Positions 6,679 to 23,105 of a stretch of DNA of 30,615 bases are shown piece by piece. Position 1 is the first letter of the stretch; every line of letters begins with the position of its first letter. The stretch is from positions 1-30,615 of IMG/VR virus record IMGVR_UViG_3300024346_000343; one strand, 5' to 3'. The position numbers and the translations under genes were made by a program. The notes beneath the pieces are model-generated. The model saw nothing but the letters and a program-made list of their open reading frames with translations. It did not search any database and was not told where the DNA came from. The stretch comes from a virus.

Positions 6679-9600
6679 ATGGCCGATCTGAACGACCTCC
6701 TCTCGCAAGCTGCCGGTACTCCTTCCACACAGCCGTCCATGTCTCTTCTTGATGAGAAAAAGGCTGCTGTATCTATGGCTGCTGACGAGAAGAAGGCCAG
6801 CATGGGTGGTACTGGTTTGTCTGACTACGACATGGCAACTGGCCGTATGTACGGTCGTGTTCCTCAGAATGTGTCTGATGTTGAACGGGATCTGATGACG
6901 ATGGATGCGTCGAACCTGTACGGCAAGTACGGCTCCGCAGCATCCGAACTTCTGGCTCAACGCAATGCGGCCAATCGTCAAGTGACCCAAGATGCCACCA
7001 GCGATTGGAATGGCACTCTCAGTCAGGTCGGTACTGACGTAAACGATCTGGTGTCTGGCTATGGTCTAGCTCTTGGTAGTCTGGCTGCTCTAGGTGTCGG
7101 TCTAGTCAATGATGATGCTGGTACAGCTATGGCCTCTGGCTTGGCTGACGCTAGTAAGTGGGCCAACAGTCTGCAATCTGATGAGCGTCAGGGTCGCCGT
7201 AATGTGGCTGAATCACTGAACCGTTTGGACGCCCGAGACATCCAAGCTCAGATGGAGAAGGATGTTGAAACTGACGGTGAGCTGATGGCCAGTCTGAAAG
7301 CCATTGGTCGTCAGGCGTACTCCGCTGTTTCCAATGCCACTGAAGACGACACCAACCTGATTGGCGGATCTATTCAGGCACTTGGTTCCTTATTGGCTGC
7401 TGGCCCTGTGACTAAGGGTTTGAAGGCTGTTGGTGGTTTGGCTGTGGCCAACAACACTGGTCGGGCCACTGTTTTGGCTGCTGAGATGGGCAACCCTGCA
7501 GCTCGTGCTGCTGTGACTATGGCAGAAAATGCTCCCGTTCTGACTGCTATTGGCGGTCTGGAAGCGGGGGGTGCGTATCAGCAAATCACCTCTGATGTGA
7601 TGGGCCGTGATTTCGATACCCTCTATGCAGAGTCTCCACAGTTCCGTGAACTGGTAGACGGTGGCATGGAGCCTGCTGATGCACAGATTCAAGTAGCTTC
7701 TGATGCAGGCAAGATGGCTGCTGCTATCACTGCACCCATCGCTGCTGCTACTGGCACTCTAGTCAGGGGTTTTGAGGCCAATCCTCTGGCCCGTACCAAT
7801 GCCAGTCAGATGCTGTCGAACCTGTTCAGAGAGCCAGTAGAAGAAGCGATCCAGGGTGGTACTTCTCAACTGGCTCAGAACTATTCCGAAAGCAAGACTG
7901 CCAACGAGAATCAAGAACTGGTTGAGAACGTCGGTCGTCAGATCGGTGAAGGTGCCCTGTACTCCGTTGGTTCCACGGCTGTTACCCAGATCCCCAACGC
8001 CGCTGCTCAGGTTGCTTCTACTGCCAGCAAGACAGCTATGGGTGCTCTGCGTGCCAATGCAGAATCCCGCAACAAGGCAAATGAGGCTACTTCGCCGGTA
8101 TCGGATGAAACTGTGGCTGCTGCTGTGGTAGAAGCTACCGCCAATGCTGCTCAGGATGAGCAAGCCATGCACCAAGCAGTTGCCTCTATGGAAGGCACTG
8201 ATGAGCAGAAGGATCGTGCCAGCACCTACGTCAATACGGTGATGGATTCGATTAAATTCAACGAAGATGACCTGCTTGCTATCAGCCCAAGTGCCCAGAT
8301 TCGTAGTGCCCTGGTTGGCTCTAAAAACCGTCTGGAAGCAGTACAACGTCTGACTGACATGGTGGCTTCGACTGAGCCAGCTAGCCCTGAGCACCTGCGT
8401 GCTGGCTTCGCACTCTACGAGATGCTTGGCCCATTGCAGAATGCTCTGGAATCCAACTCTGAACAGGCTGATGCTGTTCTGCCGGATTCTCCGGTAGGTA
8501 AAGTTTTGGCTGGCTACGAAGCCGTATTGACTGGCATTCAGAACAGCCCGAAAGTGCTTCAAGCTCTGCAGCAAATGCAGGCTGCAGTTGAACGTCGTGC
8601 TGCTCAGCCTACTGCTGAGATCACTGATGCCACCATCGAAACCACTGTCGGTCAGCAGGCAGCTCAGGACACTATCGACATCGCTCAAGTGGCCCCAGAC
8701 AAAGCCAGCTTACGTGCTACTGAACAGGTTCTGTTCCAGGTGAGCCAAGGCAAGCTGCAGGTCACTCCTCAGCAGAAAGCTGCCTTGGATAGCACTGTTG
8801 CACTACTTCGTGCTGCTCAAGCTGCAGATGCGGAAGCAGCTCAGCTTGGCCTTTCTGACAAGACCAGCAAGGTCACTCGCAACATTCAGAGCGAAGACAG
8901 TGAAAAAGGGGAATCTGCGTTGCAGCACTCCCAAGGCATCATGTCGGCATGGAAGGCGGGCAACTTTGACCTCGCACGAGATCGTCTCGTCCATTTGGGC
9001 GAGTTGGTTCAACACATGAAGAACAAGGTCTCGGCCCTGAACACACATGTGCTGGCCGGAAACTCGAATGCAAGCGGACTCCAGTATCAGGCGCTTACTT
9101 CCGACCGGAAGTGGGTGCCCTCTAACCTGAAAATGTTCGTCAACTTTGGTAGCAAGAAATCTATTCAGCAGGCCCAGCAAATTGGTTCTGATGCGACGTT
9201 CCTTGCCAATGTTTTCAATGGCTTGACTACCGCTTTTCCCAATCTTGGTGTTCCGCATGTTGATGTCACTCCGCTGGATTCTTCACTCAACGCTTCGGCT
9301 GATGAAATCCTATCGGCTTACAAAGCCAGCCGGGCGAAAGCCCCTACAGTGGATGCTACCACTACTGTGCCTGTCGAAACCTCAACTCAGACCGGATATG
9401 AATCCTTGTCTGATGAGGAGCTTAATGCACAACTGAACAATGCGTTTGATGCAGTTCGTGCTGATCCTCGTGATCGTCAAACTCGTACCATCTTCGATGC
9501 CCTGGATGAGGAAATGACTCGTCGTGAGGACATTGCTGCGGCTCAGAACCAACTGGAAGAGGAGGAGGGGCGAGTTCTGCTAGAAGCTCAGCAGGCTGCT

Positions 9601-12600
9601 AAACCAGCTCCTGCCCCAGTAACTGAGGAATCTTCGTCGGTTACGCCTTCTGACACTTCTGTGACCACCTTGTTCGGTGAGACTGGTTCCGAAATTGATG
9701 GTGGCACTCTGCAAGATTTGGCCGCCCTATCGGAAGATGAGTACATCTCTAAGGTAAACCCTTCTGGTAAGCGCCTCGATTCTGCGTTTGAACTGGGTAA
9801 CGGCCTGCAGAGTACCTATGCCGAAGAAGGTATCCCTATCCCTACTGATGCTGAAAAGATTGCTAGCAAGGATGGGGTTGATTACTTGTATGACAAAAAT
9901 GGTTCGTTTATCGCCGTCAAAGACGGAAAGGCCATTGGGTTCTACGGCATTCAATTTGGTGAAGTCATGGCTACCGTTCTCCCTGGTTACCGCAAGCAGG
10001 GGATCGCCAATGAGTTGGCCATGCACTTTTTCCGTAAATTCCCAATGGCTACCGCTGACGGCATGACCGTTGGTGGTGAGGCAACTCGTCGTAAAGTGTT
10101 TCGTGCCCTATCAGCCGAAGTCGCCAACTTCGTTGAGCAGGCTGCTAGTGTCAGCGAGTTGGGTGCGCGTGAACGTCTACTCGAAGGACAGAAGTTGCTG
10201 GATTCTCTTACAGAGGACTTGGATGACGCTGGCGAGGCTGCTGTCGAAAACCTCTACTCGGATATGTTCAACGAGAACAATATCCGTGAAGCCTTCGCTC
10301 CTGTGCGTGCGCGTATTACTCGACTGGCTTCCTCTGAGTTCGTGCAACGAATGGACGCCAAGATCAACGAGCTGGCTACCGATCAGGATCTGGCTTCTGA
10401 AGAAGCAGTGAGTATCCTGAAGTGGTTGGAAGGTTTGGCGGACAAGCAGGACGAATTGCAGTCCGATCTGTTTTTGGATGCTTTGTCAGGTGAGGATGCC
10501 GTAAAAGCAGTACCGACCACTACCTCTTCTGGTAGTGGTATAGCTACGCTGTATCCAGACCTCTTCGGTGAAGACAACAACTTCATCAAGTCTTTCTCCC
10601 TACCAGAAGAGCAACTCACTCGTACCATTGGTTCGGAAAACCCACTGTCCTTCATCATGGCTGGTCTGAAGAACAGTCTGACTCTGACTGATCTGATGGG
10701 CCGTGCCCCGAAGAAAGACTTCAACAAGGACGTGGCTGCCGCATATCAAAACTACTTGGCTATGGGTGCCCAGATCCAAGAGAAGCTGAACGAAAATCTC
10801 CAGCAGTTCTTGGATGATCAGTATTCCAGCAGGGTGGCTCCAACTCGTCGTGAGCTGATTCTGGGCAACCTGCCATTTGAGACCTCGACAGGCACCAAGT
10901 TGACTGGCGAGGATCTTGCTCGCCTGTCTGCTGGTAAGACCCTGAATATCACTGAAGTGAACGGGGATACCCTGACCTACAACGATGAGTTGGCACAGAC
11001 CGCCATCCTTGCTGGTCTTCAGTGGTTGTTGACTGCTGACCAACGTGTAACTCAGTACGATGACACTGACATTGCTTCCATGACTGGCCTTGATGTTGAG
11101 GCCGTTACTGAACGCCTGATTACCGATCTCAGTCGTGGTCTTGGTATGGCTGAAGCCAAACGTGCTTTGGCATCTAAGATCTCGCAATACTGGGGTCTGA
11201 AAGCCAAGAGCACTGGCCGTAAGGGCTACACCGAAGGTGTCCCTGAAGCCATGGCTGCGGAGATCCTGCGTGTGATGTTGGATAACGGTGTGATCCAACG
11301 AGAAGAAGTGACGATCACTGAAGCAGACGGCCTACCGCAATTGGACAGTGGTAAGCCCAATGTGAAGACCTTTGTGCGTCTGGTGCCCCCGGCACTGGAG
11401 AAGCCTTCCGCTACCTCCCTTGGTTCGCCTCTGCTGACCTACCCAACTGCCATTGAAGATGCAGTGATGGTGACGCCTGTTGAGCGTACTTATGTGGGTG
11501 ACGGTGAGCTGCCTGAAGTGGCTACCAAGCAATTGCGCAACCCGGACGTAGACAACACTGCACAGCAGAAGCAAGTCATAGAGAACGAGCAGAAGACTCC
11601 GTACTACGTGAACTCCCGCATGGTGAGCCTCTTCGCAGCACTGGGCCGGGACAACATCATTGCTCTCTTTGGTTCGCCTGAGAATGGCCGTGTGTTTAAC
11701 ACGAATCATGCCAAGTCTGTTGAAGGGCTGAATCGTGGGATCATTGCTGGCTTCGATCAACTGATGGGCACTGTGACTGAAGCTCAGGGTGTTGCTCGTG
11801 TGGCCGGGCAATCTGTGGAACAAGTGCCTATTCACTACGCATTCAACATGACTCGCGTGGCCCGTGCTCAGATGTTGGGTCGGTATAACCCACAGTCCAA
11901 CAAGTTGGTGCGTGAAGCCATTCTGCCTACTCGTGCCACTCTGAACATGAACACTCGTCAGGGCTACAATAACCTTATGCTGGGTGTTGCTCAGGCACTT
12001 GGCATCTCGGTTCACAAGATGCACCACAAGGATGCCATTGCTAAGGCTGAAGCCATGGTCTCTGGCACTGGTGCTTTGGCTGAAGTGCGTACCCTGCTGG
12101 GTGACTTCCTTACTGCGTACAGTGTTCCGACTGATGCCAACATTTCTGACATTCCGGCCTCTCCTGATCTGACTGCCAAGATCCAAGCTGCATTCGCCAA
12201 AGCAAAAGAACCTGTTTCTCCTGTGGCTCTACATGCCCTGATGGAACTGGCATGGCTGGACAAGCAGGATGCCCGTGGCCGTGCCCAGTTCCAAACTTCT
12301 ATGTATCTGGAAGCGGATGGGATCACCAACGGCCCAATCAATGCCATGGTGCTCTTGGCTCAAGGCGCATTCACATCTGATTGGGTACGTAACGTGGCCC
12401 GTGGTGGTCTGTTCTTTGGTCGTGGCCAGATGACCTCCAACGAGCAGTACGCTGACTTTGACAAGAATGACCTGTACCAGACTTCCACTGACAAGCTGAA
12501 AGAGCTGATGGCTGATCTACGGGGTGAGCTGGCAGGCAATCCTATAGGTGAAGAGCAGATGAATAACCTGCTGTCCCTGATGGATATCTTCATCCCTGAT

Positions 12601-15600
12601 CTGGAATACCAAGGTGGTGTCCTAACCCTGAAGCGTGGCATTGCCAAGAACCCACTCACCATCACCATCTACGGCTCTGGTGAAGCCGGTATCGCCAACA
12701 AACTGGTCAGCATCCTGACTGATGCCATCTACGAACGCATGAGTCTGCTGGCTGAAGCCCGTGCAGTGAACCCACAAGCTACCGTGGCTGATGCCATGTT
12801 CGATGGCGATGTGATTGCTGCTCAAGTGTTTGGCACTAGCTTGTCGAAATTGATTACGAACAGGGCAGTTAGAACCAAGAAGGAAGGCTTGATCTTTGAG
12901 AGAAATGTCTCTTCTCGTGGTAACGCTCAGGTAGATGCAGAGAACTTCACTTTCAATCGTATTGAGCTTGAAAACCTACGCTCCAACATGCGTCACCTGA
13001 TGGTCGTTCCTATGCGGCAAGCCATTGATTCGACCGTGGACGAAAGCACCATGTCGTCTGCCACCTTGATCCGTCAGGCTACTCAGGTGCAGTCGATCAT
13101 TCTGGAAAGCGTCTTCAAGCAAGAAGTACAGAAGGTGACTGATCGTCTGGCTCAGTCTGATAAGTGGCGGAGTCAGGATTTCCTGTCTCAGTCTGAGCTG
13201 AACCGCATCAAGAAGAACATGGCTCACCTGTCGCCGTTCATCAAAACGCCGACTCAGACTTTCTACATTGCTGGTTCACAAGCTGTTGATCTGGATGGTC
13301 TGCGGTATGGGGAAGCTCTGAACGGCACTCTTGAAACTCCAGCTGCTGTAAATGGCCCGGTCAATTCTGGTGTGGCAGGCATCCCGTTCTTGGTCATTGG
13401 TTCCGGGGATGCACAGATGATGCAGAACATCTCTGTTGATCCGAATTCACCTACTGGCACTCTCAAGATCTTCGATGGTATGAACATGCCGTTGGATCAG
13501 ATCGAAAATGGCTCTGCGGTGGCCAATAAAGCAGTATGGGATAGCTGGATGGGCAATCCCCTCAAAGCCGTACACACCAGCTACAGTGCCTTCCTCAAGG
13601 ATGCCCCTTTGGGCAACTACGATGAGGCCACTCGTGCTGCATTGACCCGTGCTCTGATGCCACCTCAGATGTGGAAGCAGAAGGTGTCTGACGCTGCTCT
13701 ACAAGAAGCCATGGAGAATGTACTAACCAATCTGAACAATGCTCAGATATCGGTTGAAGCACGTCACCGTGCCATGGCTCGGGTGCAGGTGTCGGTTGAC
13801 CAGATGGCTGCTGGTGCTACTCCGCACTTCCGTGAAGGTAATGAGGCGGATGCAATCCCTGCCGGGTACAACGAGGAGCAAGTCACCACTCACCTGAACC
13901 TGTTGTACGCAGAGGAATTGGCCAAGCTACGTGCTGAGCCTGTGGCAACTGATCGACTGACCAAGGAGATTATCGACCTTGGCACCAAGCATGAATCTGG
14001 TGTCTACGAGTTCAACTCCACCGACATCCGTAATATCTCCAAGCAGTTCAAGCTGCCCGAAGGACAAGACGGTGTGCTGCGTGATGTCGTGTCTTCCTTG
14101 GCTGCCAAGGGTTACACAATGGTGGTCGGCCCAGCTGCTAACATTCGCAAGTACATCAAGGACACTGGTTCGGTTGGTACTGGTGATCGTCAGGTCGATG
14201 GTGAGATCAAGGGCTTCACCAACATCGGTGAGAAGAAGATCTACTCCCTGAACCCGTCCACTGAAACGATGGTTCACGAGCTGGTGCATGCTGCCACCTT
14301 CGAAACCATTCTGGCTTTCTTCAACGGTGACGCTCTACATCCTGCGACCAAAGCTGCAGTGAAACGCATTGGGGTGCTGATGGATCAGTTCCTGAATATG
14401 GAGGGTGAGCTGGTGCAGCCGAATGCTGCTCTGCAACAGGCGTACAACGACGCTGTTGCTGCAATCAAGAGTTGGCAAAACGACCGTGGCCTACCTACTG
14501 CTGAGCGAAATGCCGGTGCTCTCAACGAGTTCATGGCCTGGAACTTGTCCAATCAGGAACTGATTCGCTTGGGTCAACGTACCCAGGCCAGCAAACTGGC
14601 CCGCATTGTCCACTCTGTACTGAAAGCGGTGCGCTCCCTGTTCTGGGGTAAGCATCGTGTGCCCACCCCGGCCAAGGACATGTTCACCAATCTGCGTTTC
14701 AACTCCGCGATCATCATGCGGAGCAACCCGACTACTGCCCAACGGTTCGTGTCCGGTGTGACCTTCCAGAACAGCCAGTACGGCAACAATGACCGTCTGA
14801 GCGAGATCAACAAAGCGTTCAACACCAGTGTTGCACGCTATCTCGGCACCACTGTTCAGCAAGGTGAAGTGGCACCATCCGATGCCGTGGACACTGGCAT
14901 CCTGAACTCGCTGCGTGTGGCCGATTCGTTCCAAGCCAATGGGTTCGTGATGACTCAACAGGAGGCCACCACCTTCAAGAGCATCGTGGCTGCCCTGTCC
15001 ACTGAAGCCGCACTGGATAGCAATGCACTCACCTTGGCTCAGAAGCTGTATGCCCATGTGACCAAGCAGCTCAAGGTTGAGCATTTCATGCAGGATGCAG
15101 AAAGCACCAACCCGGCTGATCGTTACTACGCACAGCGCAAATTTGACAGCATCATGGGCACCAATCTGGTGGAGGCAGACCTGAAAGGCCGCTCCACTCT
15201 GATGCCTGCTTTCTTGGCTCTGGCCACTGTTAATGATGAGTTCCGGGCTGTGCTGGCTGAGATGGACATGCCTGCTTCCCTGAAGATGGAAGAGCGTTCT
15301 GTGGATGCTGCACTGACCAACACTGGTCGTCGCATGATGGACTCTCTGGGCAACCGCATGGCTGGTGTCACCAGTGCCAGCAAGAATGTGCAGCAAGCCA
15401 TTGATGCCTTGCAGAACCACATCGCAGATCAAGTCCAGAATCGTGAGATGTTCATCGACCAACTGGCCAGCAAAGCTGGACGTGGTGTTGATCGGGCGAA
15501 CGAAATCATCGTGGAGAAGGCCAGCCGTTTGGCTGAAGTCGTGGGTGCCAAAGGTGATGCACTGAACCAAGATGGCCGCAACCTTGTGACCCGCTCGATT

Positions 15601-18120
15601 GGTGCCAGTGCTCAAGCTCTTAGCATCCTGACTTCCAATGAGCGTGCTGAGTTCGCAGCTCAGGGTGTGACTGAGGCCATGAACCAAGTGAACGGATTTG
15701 CTCCTATCCGAGCACTGTTGAATGACTTTGTTGGTCGTACTATGTCGAATGCCGGAGTCTATGACCTGATCAAAGGTGTTCGGTCGATGGTGCAACAAGC
15801 TCGTCAGCAGTTCCGTGAAGATCTGCCGCAGACCATTGCAAGTAAGTTCAGCCGAGAGCTGACCAAACAAGAATGGGCCAGCCTGTTCCGTGGTATCGGA
15901 AAGACTGACCTGGCTTCTCTGCGTAGTCACTTCAATAATGCGGACATCCGCAGCATGTTGTCTGATGCTTCTAACCTGCAGAACCGTGTGTCTACCCTGG
16001 AGACCTACATTCAGAATGTAGATCCAACACACTTTGCTCTGTATCAGGAGAAGATGGCGCAACTTGCCACCTACATGAATACTGGTGTCCCCGGTCGTAA
16101 CCTGCTGCGTAATGCTGAAGCTATTGCTCGTTTGCTCAATGAGAACACTCAAGACAACTTCTTCACCAAAGATGCAGACTTCGTTGCTGCTGTAGACCAA
16201 CTCGTTACCATGTATGCACTGCAAGACTTGTCTCAAGCAGACAAAGATGTGCTTGTGGCGATGGTTCGTAGTGAAGCAACTGGCCTGGACTTCGCTGTTG
16301 ACTACCTCGTGGGGCAACGTAAAGAAGAACAGAGCAAGATGTCTCCTGCTGCTGCACTGAACCACTACAAAGGACACATTCCGCAGGAGAACGCTCCTGG
16401 CGTCAGCATGATGATTGGTGGCCCGCGTAACCACGCTAAGCTGCTGAGCAAAAGCTACGTCCGTGTTGGAAACTACAAGGGTGGTACTGCCGAGCGTCTG
16501 CGTAATAAGGATCTGGGCTACTACTTTGCTCCGGTGGCTGCTCGTGCTGCTTTTGAGCAAGGCATCATGCAGAACGTCCGTCAGTCGGTGTCCGGTGTAG
16601 ACGCCAACACTGGCTATTCCCTGGTTCCTACCGCTGGCCGTGTGACCGAACCAACCAAGGTTCGTATCCTGGCCCGTTCCATGAAGACTGACCGCACTCA
16701 GGCTGAAGCCCTGCTGCCAGTGTTTGATATGAACGGCAATGTGATTGCTGTAGAGCGTTCTCTTGATCCGGTGGTCATGGAACGTGTTGCCGGTGAACAG
16801 CATCTAGCCAATGCCATCGGTGTGTGGCGTGGCCGTCAGCACGAAGAAGCAACTGCTGGTGAGTACAACCGTACTTTGGTGGATCGTTTGAAAGAGGTGT
16901 TCGATGCTGACATGGCCAAGTCCCGTTCCAACAGCAGCCAGTACATTGATCTCTTTGGTTCCATCGAAGATCCAGTGATTGCTGATGCTGTGAGCCTCAT
17001 GTCTCCGGAAACTCGTGCCTACGTGCAGGAGGTATTTGGCCCAGAGTTCATGGTTCGTAAGGATATGTTGCTGGATGTAATGGGTGAGCGTCAGGCTACT
17101 GTGGGTGATGCCTGGACTGGCAATACTCGCTGGTCTGAAACAACTCAAGCCACTGTGCGTGAACTGGCCCAGTCGTTATTTGGCAACAAGGCATACCAAT
17201 ACTTTGTCAACAGCGAACGTGCTGTGCAGGGTCTGGTAAGTGACATGCGTACTCTGATCGTGATCAAGTCGGTGGTGGTTCCCATGACTAACCTGATGTC
17301 GAACATGTACCAGCTTGCTAGCCGTGGCGTTCCGCTGAAGAACATCGTGCGTGGGATGCCCCGTAAGGTGGCTGAAGTGGACAGCTACGTCAGCAGCCGT
17401 CGTCGTCAGATCCAAGTGGAGGCAGAACTGCGGGCTGCTGTGGGCAACGTGGTTGCTGAGCGTCGTCTGAATGCTGAATGGCAGTCGATCCAAGATGGCC
17501 ACAAGCGTCTGAGCATCTGGCCGTTGATACAGGCGGGTGAGTTCTCCAGCATCTCGGATGCTCAGGTATCCCGTGAGGATCTGGAACTGACCAAGGGCCG
17601 TCTGGCTGAGTACATCGAAGGTGCGGTCAGCAAGCTGCCTGCTCCGATTGCCACCCTGGGTCGCTATGGTCTGATCACCAAGGACACTGCACTGTTCAAA
17701 GGGCTGCAGAAGTCGGTGGAGTACGGTGACTTCCTGGCCAAAGCAATCCTGTTCGATGATCTGACCAAGCGTAAGCAGATGAGCAAGAAGGAAGCACTGG
17801 GGCGCATCACTGAGGAGTTCGTGAACTACGACCGCCTCTCTGGACGCTTCCGGGCCACTCTGGAGAATCTTGGTCTTCTCTGGTTCTACAACTTCAAGTT
17901 GCGGATCACCAAGGTTGCCCTGAGTACCATCCGGAACAATCCGTTGCATGCTCTGTTGGCTACTGCTGCACCGGCCCCAGAACTCTTCGGTTCGGTGGGT
18001 CTGCCGACGCAGGACAACATCTTCGCCAAACTGGCCGATGGCAGTCTGGACTTCTCAATGGGGCCGGGCCAGGGCATGAATGCTCCGGGTCTGAACCCTT
18101 GGATGAATCTGGTGCAGTAA
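6679..18120 (+). CDS. vRNAP: Giant virion-encapsidated RNA polymerase (vRNAP, N4 gp50-like)
   Basis: This protein has 3,813 residues, somewhat longer than the 3,500 I remember for N4. The N-terminal ~1,000 residues are Ala-rich helix with short hydrophobic stretches (about 118-142, 235-258, 340-356). A GNAT-like motif follows at 1104-1113. The polymerase core (about 1300-2430) shows the motifs of T7-family single-subunit RNA polymerases: T1725-x-x-x-R1729 before NPQ, motif A with D1880 (EADGITNG), motif B R1986/K1990/Y1998, and motif C D2266 (KIFDGMN). An HELVH zinc-peptidase-like motif sits at 2533-2537. The C-terminal third is helical, ending in a conserved-looking FVNYDRLSG...LGLLWFYNF segment near 3715-3745. 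I find no cysteine anywhere. In N4 this enzyme is packaged, ejected with the DNA and transcribes early genes from hairpin promoters on single-stranded template; the same role is expected here. The start ATG has only a weak AGGG site. Confidence 0.93.
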   Translation: MADLNDLLSQAAGTPSTQPSMSLLDEKKAAVSMAADEKKASMGGTGLSDYDMATGRMYGRVPQNVSDVERDLMTMDASNLYGKYGSAASELLAQRNAANRQVTQDATSDWNGTLSQVGTDVNDLVSGYGLALGSLAALGVGLVNDDAGTAMASGLADASKWANSLQSDERQGRRNVAESLNRLDARDIQAQMEKDVETDGELMASLKAIGRQAYSAVSNATEDDTNLIGGSIQALGSLLAAGPVTKGLKAVGGLAVANNTGRATVLAAEMGNPAARAAVTMAENAPVLTAIGGLEAGGAYQQITSDVMGRDFDTLYAESPQFRELVDGGMEPADAQIQVASDAGKMAAAITAPIAAATGTLVRGFEANPLARTNASQMLSNLFREPVEEAIQGGTSQLAQNYSESKTANENQELVENVGRQIGEGALYSVGSTAVTQIPNAAAQVASTASKTAMGALRANAESRNKANEATSPVSDETVAAAVVEATANAAQDEQAMHQAVASMEGTDEQKDRASTYVNTVMDSIKFNEDDLLAISPSAQIRSALVGSKNRLEAVQRLTDMVASTEPASPEHLRAGFALYEMLGPLQNALESNSEQADAVLPDSPVGKVLAGYEAVLTGIQNSPKVLQALQQMQAAVERRAAQPTAEITDATIETTVGQQAAQDTIDIAQVAPDKASLRATEQVLFQVSQGKLQVTPQQKAALDSTVALLRAAQAADAEAAQLGLSDKTSKVTRNIQSEDSEKGESALQHSQGIMSAWKAGNFDLARDRLVHLGELVQHMKNKVSALNTHVLAGNSNASGLQYQALTSDRKWVPSNLKMFVNFGSKKSIQQAQQIGSDATFLANVFNGLTTAFPNLGVPHVDVTPLDSSLNASADEILSAYKASRAKAPTVDATTTVPVETSTQTGYESLSDEELNAQLNNAFDAVRADPRDRQTRTIFDALDEEMTRREDIAAAQNQLEEEEGRVLLEAQQAAKPAPAPVTEESSSVTPSDTSVTTLFGETGSEIDGGTLQDLAALSEDEYISKVNPSGKRLDSAFELGNGLQSTYAEEGIPIPTDAEKIASKDGVDYLYDKNGSFIAVKDGKAIGFYGIQFGEVMATVLPGYRKQGIANELAMHFFRKFPMATADGMTVGGEATRRKVFRALSAEVANFVEQAASVSELGARERLLEGQKLLDSLTEDLDDAGEAAVENLYSDMFNENNIREAFAPVRARITRLASSEFVQRMDAKINELATDQDLASEEAVSILKWLEGLADKQDELQSDLFLDALSGEDAVKAVPTTTSSGSGIATLYPDLFGEDNNFIKSFSLPEEQLTRTIGSENPLSFIMAGLKNSLTLTDLMGRAPKKDFNKDVAAAYQNYLAMGAQIQEKLNENLQQFLDDQYSSRVAPTRRELILGNLPFETSTGTKLTGEDLARLSAGKTLNITEVNGDTLTYNDELAQTAILAGLQWLLTADQRVTQYDDTDIASMTGLDVEAVTERLITDLSRGLGMAEAKRALASKISQYWGLKAKSTGRKGYTEGVPEAMAAEILRVMLDNGVIQREEVTITEADGLPQLDSGKPNVKTFVRLVPPALEKPSATSLGSPLLTYPTAIEDAVMVTPVERTYVGDGELPEVATKQLRNPDVDNTAQQKQVIENEQKTPYYVNSRMVSLFAALGRDNIIALFGSPENGRVFNTNHAKSVEGLNRGIIAGFDQLMGTVTEAQGVARVAGQSVEQVPIHYAFNMTRVARAQMLGRYNPQSNKLVREAILPTRATLNMNTRQGYNNLMLGVAQALGISVHKMHHKDAIAKAEAMVSGTGALAEVRTLLGDFLTAYSVPTDANISDIPASPDLTAKIQAAFAKAKEPVSPVALHALMELAWLDKQDARGRAQFQTSMYLEADGITNGPINAMVLLAQGAFTSDWVRNVARGGLFFGRGQMTSNEQYADFDKNDLYQTSTDKLKELMADLRGELAGNPIGEEQMNNLLSLMDIFIPDLEYQGGVLTLKRGIAKNPLTITIYGSGEAGIANKLVSILTDAIYERMSLLAEARAVNPQATVADAMFDGDVIAAQVFGTSLSKLITNRAVRTKKEGLIFERNVSSRGNAQVDAENFTFNRIELENLRSNMRHLMVVPMRQAIDSTVDESTMSSATLIRQATQVQSIILESVFKQEVQKVTDRLAQSDKWRSQDFLSQSELNRIKKNMAHLSPFIKTPTQTFYIAGSQAVDLDGLRYGEALNGTLETPAAVNGPVNSGVAGIPFLVIGSGDAQMMQNISVDPNSPTGTLKIFDGMNMPLDQIENGSAVANKAVWDSWMGNPLKAVHTSYSAFLKDAPLGNYDEATRAALTRALMPPQMWKQKVSDAALQEAMENVLTNLNNAQISVEARHRAMARVQVSVDQMAAGATPHFREGNEADAIPAGYNEEQVTTHLNLLYAEELAKLRAEPVATDRLTKEIIDLGTKHESGVYEFNSTDIRNISKQFKLPEGQDGVLRDVVSSLAAKGYTMVVGPAANIRKYIKDTGSVGTGDRQVDGEIKGFTNIGEKKIYSLNPSTETMVHELVHAATFETILAFFNGDALHPATKAAVKRIGVLMDQFLNMEGELVQPNAALQQAYNDAVAAIKSWQNDRGLPTAERNAGALNEFMAWNLSNQELIRLGQRTQASKLARIVHSVLKAVRSLFWGKHRVPTPAKDMFTNLRFNSAIIMRSNPTTAQRFVSGVTFQNSQYGNNDRLSEINKAFNTSVARYLGTTVQQGEVAPSDAVDTGILNSLRVADSFQANGFVMTQQEATTFKSIVAALSTEAALDSNALTLAQKLYAHVTKQLKVEHFMQDAESTNPADRYYAQRKFDSIMGTNLVEADLKGRSTLMPAFLALATVNDEFRAVLAEMDMPASLKMEERSVDAALTNTGRRMMDSLGNRMAGVTSASKNVQQAIDALQNHIADQVQNREMFIDQLASKAGRGVDRANEIIVEKASRLAEVVGAKGDALNQDGRNLVTRSIGASAQALSILTSNERAEFAAQGVTEAMNQVNGFAPIRALLNDFVGRTMSNAGVYDLIKGVRSMVQQARQQFREDLPQTIASKFSRELTKQEWASLFRGIGKTDLASLRSHFNNADIRSMLSDASNLQNRVSTLETYIQNVDPTHFALYQEKMAQLATYMNTGVPGRNLLRNAEAIARLLNENTQDNFFTKDADFVAAVDQLVTMYALQDLSQADKDVLVAMVRSEATGLDFAVDYLVGQRKEEQSKMSPAAALNHYKGHIPQENAPGVSMMIGGPRNHAKLLSKSYVRVGNYKGGTAERLRNKDLGYYFAPVAARAAFEQGIMQNVRQSVSGVDANTGYSLVPTAGRVTEPTKVRILARSMKTDRTQAEALLPVFDMNGNVIAVERSLDPVVMERVAGEQHLANAIGVWRGRQHEEATAGEYNRTLVDRLKEVFDADMAKSRSNSSQYIDLFGSIEDPVIADAVSLMSPETRAYVQEVFGPEFMVRKDMLLDVMGERQATVGDAWTGNTRWSETTQATVRELAQSLFGNKAYQYFVNSERAVQGLVSDMRTLIVIKSVVVPMTNLMSNMYQLASRGVPLKNIVRGMPRKVAEVDSYVSSRRRQIQVEAELRAAVGNVVAERRLNAEWQSIQDGHKRLSIWPLIQAGEFSSISDAQVSREDLELTKGRLAEYIEGAVSKLPAPIATLGRYGLITKDTALFKGLQKSVEYGDFLAKAILFDDLTKRKQMSKKEALGRITEEFVNYDRLSGRFRATLENLGLLWFYNFKLRITKVALSTIRNNPLHALLATAAPAPELFGSVGLPTQDNIFAKLADGSLDFSMGPGQGMNAPGLNPWMNLVQ
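9850..10062 (+). other. GNAT acetyltransferase-like segment inside vRNAP
   Basis: Residues about 1058-1128 read as alternating strands (FIAVKDGKAIGFYGIQFG, then VMATVLPGYRKQGIANEL). The P-x-Y-R-K-Q-G-I-A-x-x-L string at 1102-1113 matches the acetyl-CoA-binding motif A of GNAT proteins (R/Q-x-x-G-x-G/A). Activity is unknown; the segment is short for a complete GNAT fold, so it may be a remnant or a lookalike. Confidence 0.5.
11848..13500 (+). other. Single-subunit RNA polymerase catalytic motifs within vRNAP
   Basis: Four motifs lie in the right order: TRVAR with R1729, motif A D1880, motif B R1986-x3-K1990-x7-Y1998-G, and motif C D2266. In motif B the spacing equals that of T7 RNAP (R627, K631, Y639). 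The spacing D-to-K 110 and K-to-D 276 is near the N4 mini-vRNAP values I recall (111 and 281), and unlike T7 (94 and 181). Confidence 0.9.
14230..14560 (+). other. HExxH zinc-metallopeptidase-like segment within vRNAP
   Basis: H2533-E-L-V-H2537-A-A follows a strand-like KIYSLNP segment and is followed about 85 residues later by NEFMAW, whose Glu could be the third zinc ligand as in gluzincin-type peptidases. HELVHAAT strings are common in giant phage and conjugative polyvalent proteins. Catalysis is not shown. Confidence 0.6.
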
Positions 18121-18125
18121 GTACG

Positions 18126-18152
18126 AAAAGCCCCCAATCAAGGGGGCTTTTT
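18126..18152. terminator. Bidirectional terminator between convergent late and replication arms
   Basis: A 10-bp perfect stem (AAAAGCCCCC at 18126-18135 with GGGGGCTTTT at 18142-18151) closes a 6-base loop. The AT ends supply a T tract on both strands, so it can end the vRNAP transcript (plus) and the replication transcript (minus). The stop codon of the minus-strand 58-residue gene lies in its loop. Confidence 0.92.
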
Positions 18153-18314
18153 GTCGTCATCGTCGGGGAAATCAACATCTCGGTACACCCAGATGATGAA
18201 CCCCAACACCAGGACTACTGCTATCGCTGGTGCTGCTGAGATGATGGCCGAGGCAACTGCCCCGACCAGCACTACAACAAGGAACCCTCGTAGCAGGATT
18301 CCTTGCAGCGACAT
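18138..18314 (-). CDS. Small two-helix membrane protein at the convergence point
   Basis: This 58-residue gene is easily missed because of its size. It starts MSLQGILLRGF. Two hydrophobic helices are visible, about residues 6-24 and 28-44, split by a short SAAPA turn. An acidic, then basic, soluble tail follows (RDVDFPDDDDKKPP). The ATG shares one base with the stop of the upstream 142-residue gene (TGATG), a classic translational-coupling arrangement and the main reason to believe it. The TGA lies in the loop of the junction terminator. A helical hairpin with a charged tail would suit a holin-like, antiholin-like or host-membrane-modifying protein, but nothing in the sequence decides this. 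I know no named family for it. Confidence 0.75.
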   Translation of the reverse strand: MSLQGILLRGFLVVVLVGAVASAIISAAPAIAVVLVLGFIIWVYRDVDFPDDDDKKPP

Positions 18315-18742
18315 CAGTTCTGAGGCTTGCTGAGGCCCGAGAACAGGGACTTACGAGGGGCTTTTTCGGTAGTAGCTGCGCTTTCAGCTTCGTCCTGAAT
18401 AGGTTCCTGCCCTTCAGCTTCGCTGCCCTGTTCTCCTACCTGCTCGGCATCGTCAGCTTCCGCTTCGGCTACCGATTCAGCAACAGGCTCAGGCTCGGCT
18501 TTTGCCGAGGTGGCAGTAGTTTTCACCGATTCCGGTTTAGCCGCGATTTCACCAGAGGTACGGCTACCGCGAGTAGCTTTCGGCTTTTGCGGAACGATGT
18601 CGATGATGGCAGTGGTGCCTTCTTCGCCACGGGTGGCCTTGAGCTGGATCTCGATCTCCATGCCATCCTTCACCGACATGATGTCGTTGATGTAGTTCTT
18701 CAGAGCCTGTTCGATCTCAGACTGGATCAGGGTGATTTGCAT
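18314..18742 (-). CDS. Small protein with folded N-terminal domain, acidic linker and SSB-like C-terminal tail
   Basis: This protein has 142 residues. Residues 1-52 form a compact predicted alpha/beta domain (QSEIEQALKNYI helix, then EIEIQLKATRGEEGTTAIID strands) that I recognise as a recurring phage protein of unknown function. Residues 55-128 are a low-complexity Ala/Glu/Ser/Pro linker with strong negative charge. The tail, APRKSLFSGLSKPQN, repeats the APRKSLF string found at the very end of the SSB three genes upstream in this operon. A GAGGA site lies 6 bases before the ATG, overlapping the resolvase stop region. The gene is coupled to the 58-residue membrane gene. Possible role: an accessory of the replication or recombination complex that docks through the shared tail; this is inference. 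Confidence 0.75.
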   Translation of the reverse strand: MQITLIQSEIEQALKNYINDIMSVKDGMEIEIQLKATRGEEGTTAIIDIVPQKPKATRGSRTSGEIAAKPESVKTTATSAKAEPEPVAESVAEAEADDAEQVGEQGSEAEGQEPIQDEAESAATTEKAPRKSLFSGLSKPQN

Positions 18743-18751
18743 TGCATTTCC

Positions 18752-19324
18752 TCAGCGCAGAATGCGCAGTAAATTCTGAAATATGGGGGTGGACACCCCC
18801 GCATGTATTGCTGCTAGGGCATCGGCAACGTGTTCTGCTTCGTTCATCAGGTCTCCCTTTTTGAACTTGGCACCATTCTTGGCATGGCGAGGCCATTCGA
18901 CTGTGGGGTAGAACTCAACCCCGGCGTCGATCATCTGTTGTTTGGTGGCGTTCTTGTTGCCTGTGAACGCCAGCTTCACTTCAGTTGCTGTGACCTCGAT
19001 GATCTGGATACCCTCGGCACGAAGCGTACCGAGGATGCCACAGACCACACCATAGGCTTTCATGCCACTGGCATTTTGGGAGCCAACTGGAACTTCTACG
19101 AAGATGGCTTTGCAGCGACGACCAACTTCAAGTGCCTTTCTGGCCAGCTCCTCGCAACGGCGGAGATCATCCGAGTTGGTTCGCACTTGTTTGTGCTTGC
19201 CTTTGTCGGTGGAGACAACCTCCAGCCGTACACCGTTGAGATACCCCGTCTCCAGGTCTAATTGACCTTCAGCAATCCCCCAGTTGGTAAGGCTGGGGTC
19301 GAAGCCTGCGACGGGGATCAGCAT
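18752..19324 (-). CDS. RuvC-like Holliday-junction resolvase (RNase H fold)
   Basis: This 190-residue protein has the layout of RuvC-type resolvases. It opens with the strand and first catalytic acid in AGFDPSLTNWG (D9), the second in IFVEVPVGSQ (E77), and the C-terminal acidic cluster in NEAEHVADALAA (E164, D168), followed by a short tail. The middle segment (RAEGIQIIEVTATEVKLAF) matches the strand-helix after the E site in RuvC-like proteins. It would cut branched DNA made during replication and recombination before packaging. It lies 5 bases downstream of the ssb stop and 9 bases upstream of the next start, within the recombination block with the RecA-like ATPase and SSB. Length is close to bacterial RuvC (about 170). 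Confidence 0.85.
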   Translation of the reverse strand: MLIPVAGFDPSLTNWGIAEGQLDLETGYLNGVRLEVVSTDKGKHKQVRTNSDDLRRCEELARKALEVGRRCKAIFVEVPVGSQNASGMKAYGVVCGILGTLRAEGIQIIEVTATEVKLAFTGNKNATKQQMIDAGVEFYPTVEWPRHAKNGAKFKKGDLMNEAEHVADALAAIHAGVSTPIFQNLLRILR

Positions 19325-19329
19325 GGCTT

Positions 19330-20082
19330 TTACTTACCGAACAGCGACTTGCGTGGAGCACTGCCGGCTGCCGGTGCAGCAGCAGAAGTGCCAGCAGATT
19401 TCGGAGCACCAGCAGTACCGGCTTGACCGTCCTTGATAGTACGCTTATCGCGGATGTTGCCCTTGTTGCGTTCCAGCCAGGAGTCCCAGAACTTGGCCGA
19501 TTCGGCACCTTCACGGGCTTCAACCACGGTCATGCGGGTTTCGGTGTGGAAGACCTTATCGGTGGCGTTCAGCTCACGAGTTTCGGCAGTCGGCACGTAT
19601 TCTTCACCGACTTTCTCGCTCTTGTTCTCCAGCACCTTGGCAATGCCGAGGCTGACTTCCAGACCCAACGCTTCGACCAGCATCGGAACGGCCTTGGGCA
19701 GTTCTTTCTTGGCCTCGCTGTCGTACAGCTTGATGGTCTTTTCTTCGGTTTCTTGCTCGGCCAGGGGTTTGCCGGTAGTGACGAGGCAGAGGTCGTCTAC
19801 CAGGGTGAAGCCCGGCAGCGGAACCTTCTTGGTCTTGTCGTCTTTGTTGAGGAAGAAGTTCTCGCCCTTCTTGTTGGTGATCCAGAAGGTCTCACGGTAT
19901 TCGCTACCGTCAGCCAGCGAGAGGATCAGGGACACCGATTGAGCACCGCCAGGCGATTTACCGGCGTACAGGGCTTTGATCTTGCCGGTGTAAATGTCGG
20001 TTTCTTTCGGCTGGTAGCCACCACCGAGACGATCCTGGGTTTGTTCCAGACCGTCGGATTTCAGATTGCCAAACAGGCTCAT
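19330..20082 (-). CDS. ssb: Single-stranded DNA-binding protein, N4 gp45-like
   Basis: This 250-residue protein follows the RecA-like ATPase gene and precedes the resolvase, the place of N4 gp45 (about 265 residues). Residues 25-110 are beta-rich and aromatic (DIYTGKIKALYAG, EYRETFWITNKKGENFF), as expected for an OB-type fold. Residues 120-215 are charged and mostly helical. A Gly/Ala/Pro/Ser linker (about 218-242) leads to the end APRKSLFGK. Unlike bacterial SSB the extreme C terminus is basic, not acidic. From memory, N4 SSB also activates host sigma-70 polymerase at late promoters through residues near its C terminus, so this tail may do both jobs. The SSB name rests on synteny and on domain layout, not on a specific motif. 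Confidence 0.8.
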   Translation of the reverse strand: MSLFGNLKSDGLEQTQDRLGGGYQPKETDIYTGKIKALYAGKSPGGAQSVSLILSLADGSEYRETFWITNKKGENFFLNKDDKTKKVPLPGFTLVDDLCLVTTGKPLAEQETEEKTIKLYDSEAKKELPKAVPMLVEALGLEVSLGIAKVLENKSEKVGEEYVPTAETRELNATDKVFHTETRMTVVEAREGAESAKFWDSWLERNKGNIRDKRTIKDGQAGTAGAPKSAGTSAAAPAAGSAPRKSLFGK

Positions 20083-20110: not shown

Positions 20111-20136
20111 GGGAGAAAACAGCTACTTAGTAGCTG
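20111..20136 (-). terminator. Hairpin with stop codon as loop, between ATPase and ssb
   Basis: A 7-bp perfect stem (CAGCTAC at 20120-20126, GTAGCTG at 20130-20136) has a 3-base loop that is exactly the TAA stop of the ATPase gene. On the minus strand it is followed by TTTTCTCC, so it can act as a weak terminator or as a pause site setting ssb level apart from the upstream genes. Confidence 0.55.
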
Positions 20137-20897
20137 CCATAGAACTCGGTGAGGTGATCCAGCAGAACCTGGACATCGTTGTCGATGTAGGTCTCAGCTT
20201 TCTCAAACATTCCCATCGGGGAACGGATACGTTCACCAGTCGTACCTTTGGTGATGCGGGTCTGGAAGACGTGCTTGTAGCCAAGCTCACGCTCTTCTTC
20301 CGTGATAACCAGCATCTTGCTGCCGTACTTCTCCAATTCCTTGACAGGAATCTTCTTAGCCGCGACAACAGTGGTGAAGTAGGCTTCTACCCCTTGGTTC
20401 TTCAGGGCACCCTTGATAGGCACAGCCGTCTTCATTTCCTGGTTCTTCTCGTCAAGCTCATCCTTGACGTGAGCGATGATGATCACAGGTTTGCCGAAAG
20501 CGGCCACCTTCTGCTGCATCACCGTCTTGAAGAACTGCTGATACGCAGACCAGCCAGCCATTGTGTTGGCTGAACCAATGACGTACAGACTTTCGAACAT
20601 GTCCATCAGGAAGGTCATCGAGTCGATGATGATGCCATCAACTTGATCCTTGTTTGCGATGCACTCGTCCATGAAGGCGATTACATCCATAGGATCAGTG
20701 ATGTTGATCCGATTGAACTTGTTCTTGAACGGTAGTCGCTTACCAGATTCAGTGTTGAGATAAACCCAACGCTCCTGATTGCGGATATTCCGCAGACTTG
20801 CCGACTTACCCTGAGTGGAGTAGCCCACAATCAGCACAAGCTGATCGAGACTACCCTCCAACTGGGATGGCGATTCTTGCTCTTCGGTTTCGCTCAT
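20127..20897 (-). CDS. RecA-like (Sak4-type) ATPase, N4 gp44-like
   Basis: This protein has 256 residues. The start ATG is set by a GGAGG site in the 60-base gap from the primase gene. A Walker A motif GYSTQGKS is at about residues 29-36, and a Walker B strand GIIIDSMT at about 88-95. A further conserved strand GKPVIIIAHVKDEL (about 136-149) ends in the polar residue typical of RecA-fold sensors. The rest contains strands and a helical C terminus. The size and single RecA fold match the phage Sak4-type ATPases that assist strand annealing with SSB, and the gene is directly followed by ssb. Other possibilities are a packaging-unrelated AAA protein or a helicase loader; Sak4-like is my best call. 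Confidence 0.8.
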   Translation of the reverse strand: MSETEEQESPSQLEGSLDQLVLIVGYSTQGKSASLRNIRNQERWVYLNTESGKRLPFKNKFNRINITDPMDVIAFMDECIANKDQVDGIIIDSMTFLMDMFESLYVIGSANTMAGWSAYQQFFKTVMQQKVAAFGKPVIIIAHVKDELDEKNQEMKTAVPIKGALKNQGVEAYFTTVVAAKKIPVKELEKYGSKMLVITEEERELGYKHVFQTRITKGTTGERIRSPMGMFEKAETYIDNDVQVLLDHLTEFYGSY

Positions 20898-20957: not shown

Positions 20958-23105
20958 TTATGCACGGGAGTAGCGTTTGGAGAGTGTCACGAAGATGGTG
21001 TTGTCGATCTCCTCTTCATCCAGAGGCGTGTTCAGCTTCTGATTGAAGGCATGCACCTGTTTACCAACGGACATGAGATCCATGCCGCTATCCACCAGGG
21101 CCAGTGCGTACTTGATCATCTGGTTGTTACGGTTGCCAGAAGCAATGCGTTGAGCGAACCAGCGTTCCAGATTGTCCAGCGATTCCACGGCTTGAAAGCC
21201 CTGCTTGAACTGCTCGTTCTTGCTGGTCTTCGGGATAAAGCCCAACACGTCCAGCAACTCACCTTCCATGTTGTAGTGGCATGCACCGTTAAAGCATTCC
21301 CACTTCTTGGCTCGCTGATTGGCAGACTCATCCGTTTTGAACGGAAGCCATGCCATCACCATGTTCATGAACTCCTTGTACTCACCGGAATCCAATTCCA
21401 GGTAGTAGTTCATGGGGATGACCAGACGGAAACGGTTCTCTTCATCAGAGTGACGTTTCGTCGTGTACGTCATGAACTTGTATTCCTTCATGAGTTCATG
21501 GACGGTATTCAGAGCAATGCCCCCGTCAACGTCAATGACGATCATGTTGAAGCCGACGAACACATTTTCTTCTGCACGGTGCCCACCTTTGAAGTGGTGG
21601 TTGGCCCAGTGCATACCGTCGGTTTGAGTCAGCACATGGAGTTGGTCAAACGGCACCTTCTCACACATGTAGTTGTAGGCCCAGTGGTCGCTGTAGCTGA
21701 TGACCATCTCGTCCAGATTGGTTTCCTTGAGGGTTTCACCCTTGAAGAACTCAATACCGTCAGTGAAGGTCTTCTTGATGATGATGTGCTTTTTGTAGCC
21801 CCAGGCGGTGGCCAGGGTCATCAACTCATTACGTGCTGCGTTGCCCGACTTGTAGAACGGTAGGGCTTCCAGCAGATCAGCATGGGTCACTTCGGTGCCC
21901 ACATCAGCGATGTACTTGGCCAGTTTCACATAGGTCTTTTCCCGGTTCAGGATCGACTGGAAAGCTGCACCAGACTCTTCCACCAGCAAGATGGCTTGTT
22001 TGAGGTGATCCATCTCCACTTCGATGCTTTCATCCACGAAGGCAAAGGCACCAGCCAGTTTGAGCGCACGGAAGTAGCGGTGGCTGATTTCAGCCTTGCG
22101 GATCTCCTCGTGATCTGCCATTTGGTCGGCAGCTTTTTCGCACTCGATCTTGTAGGTCAACAGAGCGATGCCAACGTCATCCTCTACCTGCATCCGCCAG
22201 CCGTACATGCTGGCATCGGCCAGACGGTGGAACTTGGTGGCCCATTTGTCGATCACAGCACTGTTGGAAGGCTGCGTCAGATTGGCGTAAATCTCCTCCG
22301 GTGTCTTGGTGTTGTGGGCCTTACGACTGTGCTGGCCGATACCGAACAGGCAACGACGAGCGTAGCCAGTGTCCAGCATGTCGTAGAACTGGTCTTCAGT
22401 CTGGCCACCGTCCAGCAGCTTGCTCGGAGTACCGAACAGCAGCATGTTGGTGGGCGTCTTTCCGTCCAGCTCTTCACCACGGGTGTTCTCAGCAGTGTTT
22501 TTGGTGAGCTTCTGCTTCACCAAACCCTGGTCGTACAGCTCAAGGAACAGAGTCAACACGTCAGCCGAACCCATCAGGTTGCTGCCGATTTCGTCAATCT
22601 GCAGGTTGATGGCACCACAGTTGCCCATCATGAGCTTGTGGCGAAGCTGTTTGACTGCAGGCGGGGTGCCTGAGTCGAAGGTGAATGGAATTGCACCAGC
22701 ACGTTTGAACTCGCCTTCGGCTTTCTCAAACTCTTCTTGCTGGTCAGTGCCATTGCGAGCAGCACGCTCATTGGCGATTTCCCACAGATGCTTTTCAGCA
22801 ATGATGGGGAAGGTGTCTTCCATGAAGCGCTTTTTGAAGCCCTTCAGGAACTCAGTTTCCACGATGTTGACTGAGTGACCTTTGCCGAAGCCAGAGGTGG
22901 CCAGAGCAAGTGCGTAGATGTTGACCGGAATTTCGCCCCGGTCTTTGGTGACGATGGTGGCACGCATGGAGCTAGCCATTTTGGCCAAAAAGTAGGCCAT
23001 TTCCACCCGGAAGAATCCACGGTCGGTGTTCTGCGTTTTATTGCAGAGCACTTCCACAATTTCCTCGATGGCCGGGTGATGCGAAATCCCAGTCAAGTCG
23101 ATCAT
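20958..23105 (-). CDS. DNA primase-helicase-like protein, N4 gp43-like
   Basis: This protein has 715 residues, about the size remembered for N4 gp43 primase. The N-terminal half is an ATPase of the DUF3987/SF3-like kind: Walker A-like ATSGFGKGHS (69-78), Walker B LQIDEIG with D171-E172, then a PTNMLLFGTPSKLL strand and an arginine-rich GYARRCLFG segment (248-255). The C-terminal half shows an archaeo-eukaryotic primase pattern: MIVIDVDGG with D525 and D527, TTKRHSDEENRFRLVIP with H552 and R558, and KKWECFNGA near 600-608. A helical PriCT-like tail closes it. It shares ATGA with the upstream nuclease stop, so the two are coupled. It would make primers at the phage fork. The ATPase-first, primase-second order is unusual. 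Confidence 0.82.
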   Translation of the reverse strand: MIDLTGISHHPAIEEIVEVLCNKTQNTDRGFFRVEMAYFLAKMASSMRATIVTKDRGEIPVNIYALALATSGFGKGHSVNIVETEFLKGFKKRFMEDTFPIIAEKHLWEIANERAARNGTDQQEEFEKAEGEFKRAGAIPFTFDSGTPPAVKQLRHKLMMGNCGAINLQIDEIGSNLMGSADVLTLFLELYDQGLVKQKLTKNTAENTRGEELDGKTPTNMLLFGTPSKLLDGGQTEDQFYDMLDTGYARRCLFGIGQHSRKAHNTKTPEEIYANLTQPSNSAVIDKWATKFHRLADASMYGWRMQVEDDVGIALLTYKIECEKAADQMADHEEIRKAEISHRYFRALKLAGAFAFVDESIEVEMDHLKQAILLVEESGAAFQSILNREKTYVKLAKYIADVGTEVTHADLLEALPFYKSGNAARNELMTLATAWGYKKHIIIKKTFTDGIEFFKGETLKETNLDEMVISYSDHWAYNYMCEKVPFDQLHVLTQTDGMHWANHHFKGGHRAEENVFVGFNMIVIDVDGGIALNTVHELMKEYKFMTYTTKRHSDEENRFRLVIPMNYYLELDSGEYKEFMNMVMAWLPFKTDESANQRAKKWECFNGACHYNMEGELLDVLGFIPKTSKNEQFKQGFQAVESLDNLERWFAQRIASGNRNNQMIKYALALVDSGMDLMSVGKQVHAFNQKLNTPLDEEEIDNTIFVTLSKRYSRA

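Follow-up and report, generated by a model that had tools for sequence, protein, structure and literature searches.

The minus-strand open reading frame at positions 18138-18314 of the window, that is, of the 30,615-nucleotide stretch of viral DNA analyzed here, is almost certainly a genuine protein-coding gene of a Schitoviridae phage. Its translated product, MSLQGILLRGFLVVVLVGAVASAIISAAPAIAVVLVLGFIIWVYRDVDFPDDDDKKPP (58 aa), belongs to a family of very hydrophobic proteins of 44-69 aa that share a central AAPYIA-type motif and are encoded directly after a gp47-like gene; superinfection exclusion, or sensing that triggers lysis inhibition, is tentatively favored as its role. Some of this was already known, since members are found in PHROG families 23833 and 19025 and as hypothetical proteins in several records. 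What is new is the definition of one family by position, a phage N4 member that is missing from the reference record, and an explanation for the recurring KKPP ending. The coordinates proposed in the initial annotation, which gave no strand, were exact, and the plus-strand frame over the same interval is broken by internal stops.

The window is a 30.6 kb fragment of an N4-like genome. Its structural genes lie on the plus strand and end with the giant virion RNA polymerase (vRNAP) gene (6679-18120, 3813 aa), which was recognized from its open reading frame and from C-terminal identity, the last 239 aa being 78% identical to those of locus L010 and 73% to those of Zuri. Convergent with it on the minus strand is an N4-type replication cluster, an arrangement that places the window in Schitoviridae. 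The order is DNA primase (20958-23105), Sak4-like annealing protein (20127-20897), single-strand DNA-binding protein (SSB; 19330-20082), RuvC/RNaseH-like Holliday junction resolvase (18752-19324), a gp47-like acidic protein with a C-terminal SLF tip (18314-18742), and the small gene. Primase and Sak4 were assigned from the gene order of Zuri gp65 and gp66, the SSB as the equivalent of Zuri gp67, and the resolvase from its position and the annotation of Zuri gp68. The gp47-like protein was assigned by alignment and by its match to phrog_18842 (E 8.8e-31), and has matches in 115 phage records. The same order is seen in Zuri and N4, and it bears out the earlier view that the small gene is terminal in the replication cluster. 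The closest annotated relatives are the Pseudomonas phages Ebordelon, Zuri, and Holyagarpour, with about 72% DNA identity in the small-gene region.

The start of the small gene is joined to the gene that precedes it. The ATG and the TGA that ends the 142-aa open reading frame upstream (18314-18742) have one base in common, which gives the TGATG at 18312-18316 (minus strand) that had been pointed out at the outset and that recurs with the same offset in many relatives. A Shine-Dalgarno sequence is not evident within the 18 bases 5' of the ATG; together with the one-base overlap, this suggests translational coupling or re-initiation as the likely route of translation.

In Zuri, the corresponding protein is gp70 (YP_009883029.1), annotated as hypothetical, which is 51% identical to the window protein and resembles it in length (58 aa), position, one-base overlap, and a KKPP end built by the terminator. 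The equivalents in Holyagarpour and Ebordelon have the same length, position, overlap, and KKPP end; Holyagarpour lists the gene, and Ebordelon, whose protein is identical to Zuri gp70, lists none. Neither frameshifts nor stops interrupt the frame in these close relatives, in L010, or in others, so that what the initial annotation had named as refuting the gene was looked for and did not occur. Homologues at the same place are also present in inbricus and Axy24, and most of the 46 viral contigs that were collected via the vRNAP C-terminus contain a small hydrophobic open reading frame with an AAPYIA-type motif at the corresponding place. A tblastn search of phages with the 58-aa window protein and a single-protein scan of the viral contigs returned no match, owing to the shortness and divergence of the protein, and the search was solved by combining position with a hidden Markov model (HMM). 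At the profile level, the window protein matches phrog_23833 (E 3.5e-6; residues 6-43 to profile positions 3-40 of 46). Among 40 aligned members, 23 match PHROG 23833 and 21 match PHROG 19025; these are kept as separate families without function and are joined here by motif and position. Pfam and NCBIfam searches gave no usable match, and PHROG and Pfam together yielded only families without function or sub-threshold matches.

The gene is retained from the relatives of the window to the model phage N4, yet the reference annotation of N4 omits it. The N4 member (55 aa; NC_008720 32132-32299) lies directly after gp47 and is unannotated. When it was used as a tblastn query, 84 phage records were matched; in the best 60 of these, no gene is given at the place in 40, a hypothetical protein in 10, and a tail spike in one, and nine records are wholly unannotated, so that the gene is missing in 40 of the 51 annotated records within those best 60. 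The initial description of the gene as hidden is therefore right for N4, G7C, Moo19, and many other annotations, but not for several records in which it is listed as hypothetical: Zuri gp70, Holyagarpour, inbricus gp17, KP8 gp60, and bas69_0030, the last from AlfredRasser, which is of the same species as N4. Bas96 lists it too, with an internal start. A study that mined the core genes of N4-like phages dropped open reading frames below 50 aa (PMC10654107), and part of the family would thus be lost there. A literature search, with most subscription journals outside its coverage, found no paper on the family and no transcript or proteome evidence for the small open reading frame.

A family HMM built from 32 members, with the window protein inside the seed alignment, found a single match at E <= 0.1 in each of 26 out of 36 whole records; outside the seed it matched Frozen, L036, L046, Ea9-2, Bas96, and KP8. 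Position was assessed separately: a gp47-like HMM located gp47, and the same-strand downstream open reading frame was then examined at 55 distinct loci (identical records counted once, by hand). A family match lies immediately downstream of gp47 in 40 of the 55, and another small hydrophobic open reading frame in seven (L044, L048, L051, L053, RHph_X2_28B, S6, and SP-076). L045 has a longer hydrophobic open reading frame there, and seven loci have no small one after gp47 (PB119, Pokken, L015, L018, L032, ZC03, and Ab09). A small hydrophobic open reading frame follows random positions of the same loci in 3.2% of cases, against which the recurrence at one place in related phages, proposed as a check in the initial annotation, stands out clearly. 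In N4 and in Erwinia phage Ea9-2, the gene adjoins gp47 although it is at least 2 kb from vRNAP, with other genes or tRNAs between, which indicates that it belongs to the replication cluster and not to the junction. In the more distant XC38, JSF3, and DFL12phi1, a small hydrophobic protein is encoded after the resolvase or an SLF-tipped gene, a likeness that is positional only. The open reading frames of RHph_X2_28B (52 aa; L059:5392-5550, minus strand) and SP-076 (48 aa; L062:4872-5018, minus strand) are unannotated and lie directly after the gp47-like gene. Ab09 has a small hydrophobic open reading frame at the vRNAP junction instead, and six loci (L005, L006, L015, L018, L032, and L058) have gp47 with no small membrane gene after it.

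Substitution patterns agree with a coding function. Between the window and its nearest relative, L010, the Nei-Gojobori method gave dS 0.94 and dN 0.16 (dN/dS about 0.18). The ratio was 0.17-0.39 in 14 of 16 close pairs, with small counts per pair, and 0.8-0.9 in the two exceptions, L025/L030 and L020/L022. Most close pairs thus show purifying selection, in a direction that fits a constrained coding gene. A28 and A32 are invariant, and L7, P29, and Y30 are frequent to nearly invariant; conservation is confined to the hydrophobic core with its AAPYIA motif, and no column of the tail is conserved.

The initial annotation had called the product a membrane protein with two clean transmembrane helices and a turn. 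Residues 10-45 of the window protein form a single hydrophobic stretch, about 36 residues long and with a proline midway, from which membrane insertion is inferred. In 35 motif-anchored sequences, positive residues precede the hydrophobic stretch (position -24 is positive in 21 and negative in none) and recur where it ends, with few charges in its center. These sequences display two hydrophobic segments around a center of small residues with Pro and Tyr, and occasional His, Asp, or Arg. Hydrophobicity and flanking charges thus favor two spans, as first proposed, with both ends inside, but AlphaFold2 draws one long helix, at residues 3-46 with core pLDDT > 90 (30 sequences, window first) or 3-44 (L014 protein first). 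Because the alignment is so shallow, such a prediction may be compatible with a hairpin, and the protein may span the membrane either once or twice.

At its 3' end, the gene overlaps a two-way terminator hairpin (18126-18152, both strands), recognized from its sequence, its folding, and a like design in relatives. The arms, AAAAGCCCCC (18126-18135) and GGGGGCTTTT (18142-18151), enclose a loop (18136-18141) in which the stop codon of the small gene, TGA (18138-18140), is situated. The RNA of each strand folds far better than shuffled sequence (z -4.8 and -5.2), and a T run flanks the hairpin on both strands. As the inverted repeat starts 6 bases past the vRNAP stop (18118-18120), the hairpin can end both convergent transcripts. 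The overlap with the junction terminator that had been noticed initially is thereby made precise. The charged tail, also noticed then, is present, yet its last residues, KKPP, are encoded by the terminator 5' arm. It might be imagined that a ribosome finishing the open reading frame hinders the hairpin, which would tie translation to termination.

A reading of KKPP as a conserved protein motif was considered and discarded, because the ending coincides with the terminator 5' arm in the Zuri group and several other members, and because tails differ where the terminator lies downstream. Thus, in the window, the Zuri group, L013, L055, Arace01, S6, and XC38, the 5' arm codes KPP or KKPP and the stop is in or beside the loop, whereas in L014, L029, L050, L035, and L040, the hairpin starts a few bases from the stop and the tail ends otherwise. 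N4, KP8, L037, and L041 end in KPP even though they lack a hairpin of this kind, which leaves room for some residual cause at the protein level. The recurring KKPP is, for the most part, an imprint of the terminator, which explains its presence in otherwise diverged members, and it should not be taken as a protein motif.

Constraint in the hydrophobic core, and not in the soluble tail, suggests that the protein probably acts inside the membrane. Since phages of very different hosts carry the gene, its target is probably the membrane machinery of the phage itself or a universal host protein. We propose that the product would be made with the middle (replication) transcript, through coupling or re-initiation after gp47, and would insert into the inner membrane, its two ends facing the cytoplasm, where helix packing, against its own kind or against a different membrane protein, is its probable mode of action. 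In line with such expression, the gene is clustered with those for SSB and primase, and replication functions are encoded by middle transcripts (PMC4496689). As a regulator already made before late genes are expressed, the protein would target the apparatus by which a second N4-like phage enters. Superinfection exclusion proteins of the Imm type in phage T4 are likewise small membrane proteins made before the late phase, and it is in these two traits that we see the likeness to the window protein. A regulator of this kind, acting in exclusion or in the sensing that triggers lysis inhibition, is possible and is the role that we favor, since the core is conserved, the gene is found in phages that infect many hosts, and its neighbors are expressed ahead of the late phase. 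Against it, the conserved operon position would suit a replication role equally, and Pokkenvirus, ZC03, L015, L018, and L032 have no such open reading frame after gp47. No named family was matched in the profile libraries.

In N4, lysis inhibition is linked to superinfection, and the exclusion system is stated to be uncharacterized (PMC12642591). That the small protein is the missing membrane component of this N4 exclusion or sensing system is improbable; it is nevertheless one concrete and readily deleted candidate for what that study states as open questions, namely the exclusion system and the lysis-inhibition signal. If the exclusion or sensing reading is true, the gap in the N4 reference would explain why a micro-protein of most N4-like phages escaped study. 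No mutation at the small-gene locus appears among the N4 rapid-lysis mutants tabulated in that study (PMC12642591, Table 1). Lineages without the gene offer a comparison, as differences in superinfection or lysis behavior from the others could hint at function. As a separate observation, the mutants of that table include a cluster of changes, mostly silent, in codons 781-882 of vRNAP gp50, which is unexplained there.

The main alternative is a membrane tether or organizer of the replication-recombination complex, which would hold gp47, SSB, or the resolvase at the inner membrane. The constant end-of-cluster position and the coupling to gp47, even where vRNAP is distant, speak for it, and so does the tight membrane association of N4 RNAPII, gp2, and template DNA (PMC4496689). 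However, soluble partners could be met only by about five residues at the N-terminus and 10-25 variable ones at the C-terminus, the tail is unconserved and partly dictated by the terminator, and some lineages lack the gene; we regard a tether as unlikely. In particular, the idea that the N4 RNAPII-membrane complex needs the protein as its anchor is disfavored, because the membrane fraction contains gp2 and template DNA even after infection with RNAPII mutants, which make no middle proteins (PMC4496689).

Many small bacterial membrane proteins modulate inner-membrane proteins, and the phage protein could similarly act on a universal host protein of that membrane, such as a protease, a translocase, or an ATP synthase subunit. 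Such a modulator would fit the constraint on the membrane core, where small residues would allow helices to pack, and the presence of the gene in phages of many hosts, but no above-threshold similarity to known small regulators was found, so that this reading is unlikely.

The initial annotation had also suggested a holin- or antiholin-like function. Class II holins, for example that of phage 21, are small and very hydrophobic, with two spans and both ends inside. In size, hydrophobicity, and, if it has two spans, the inside location of both ends, the window protein resembles these and also N4 gp62, for which a two-span, both-ends-inside topology has been described (PMC12642591); gp62 differs in its length of 109 aa and in being encoded elsewhere. 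N4-like phages do regulate lysis timing (PMC12642591), and a small protein could modify the late pinholin or depolarize the membrane. However, N4 gp60-63, with pinholin gp63 and regulator gp62, form a complete lysis cassette that reportedly suffices for lysis inhibition as well (PMC12642591), and in Zuri separate holin-endolysin-spanin genes, gp85-gp87, lie about 23 kb from the small gene and on the opposite strand. Unlike a class II holin gene, the small gene is outside the lysis cassette, in the middle (replication) cluster on the other strand, not beside the endolysin or spanin genes, and no curated holin profile matches it at the cut-off, a few members having far-below-cut-off matches. Gene position and the separate cassettes of N4 and Zuri led us to reject it as the main holin, and a role in lysis timing is unlikely. 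That the open reading frame arose by chance and has no function would fit its shortness, its lack of an assigned function, and its absence in some lineages, but is exceedingly improbable given purifying selection and the conservation of frame, motif, and position.

Several observations concern the upstream partner. The gp47-like protein (18314-18742) and the SSB (19330-20082) share a tip of the type [KR]xSLF, as do many of loci L001-L068, and SLF is invariant across the gp47 alignment. The C-terminal residues of the N4 SSB are reported to be essential for the activation of late transcription (PMC4496689); given the like tips, gp47 may share the binding partner of the SSB. The recorded N4 gp47 (NC_008720.1 29000-36500, locus 2679-3113) is without the SLF tip of its relatives, but a different frame yields the tip immediately 5' of the small open reading frame; near the 3' end of gp47, the N4 record thus differs in frame from its sister phages. 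In some lineages, among them Rhizobium phages, the gp47-like domain is fused to a RusA-type resolvase, as in RHph_X2_28B (5550-6317, minus strand), where the fusion is followed by the small hydrophobic open reading frame.
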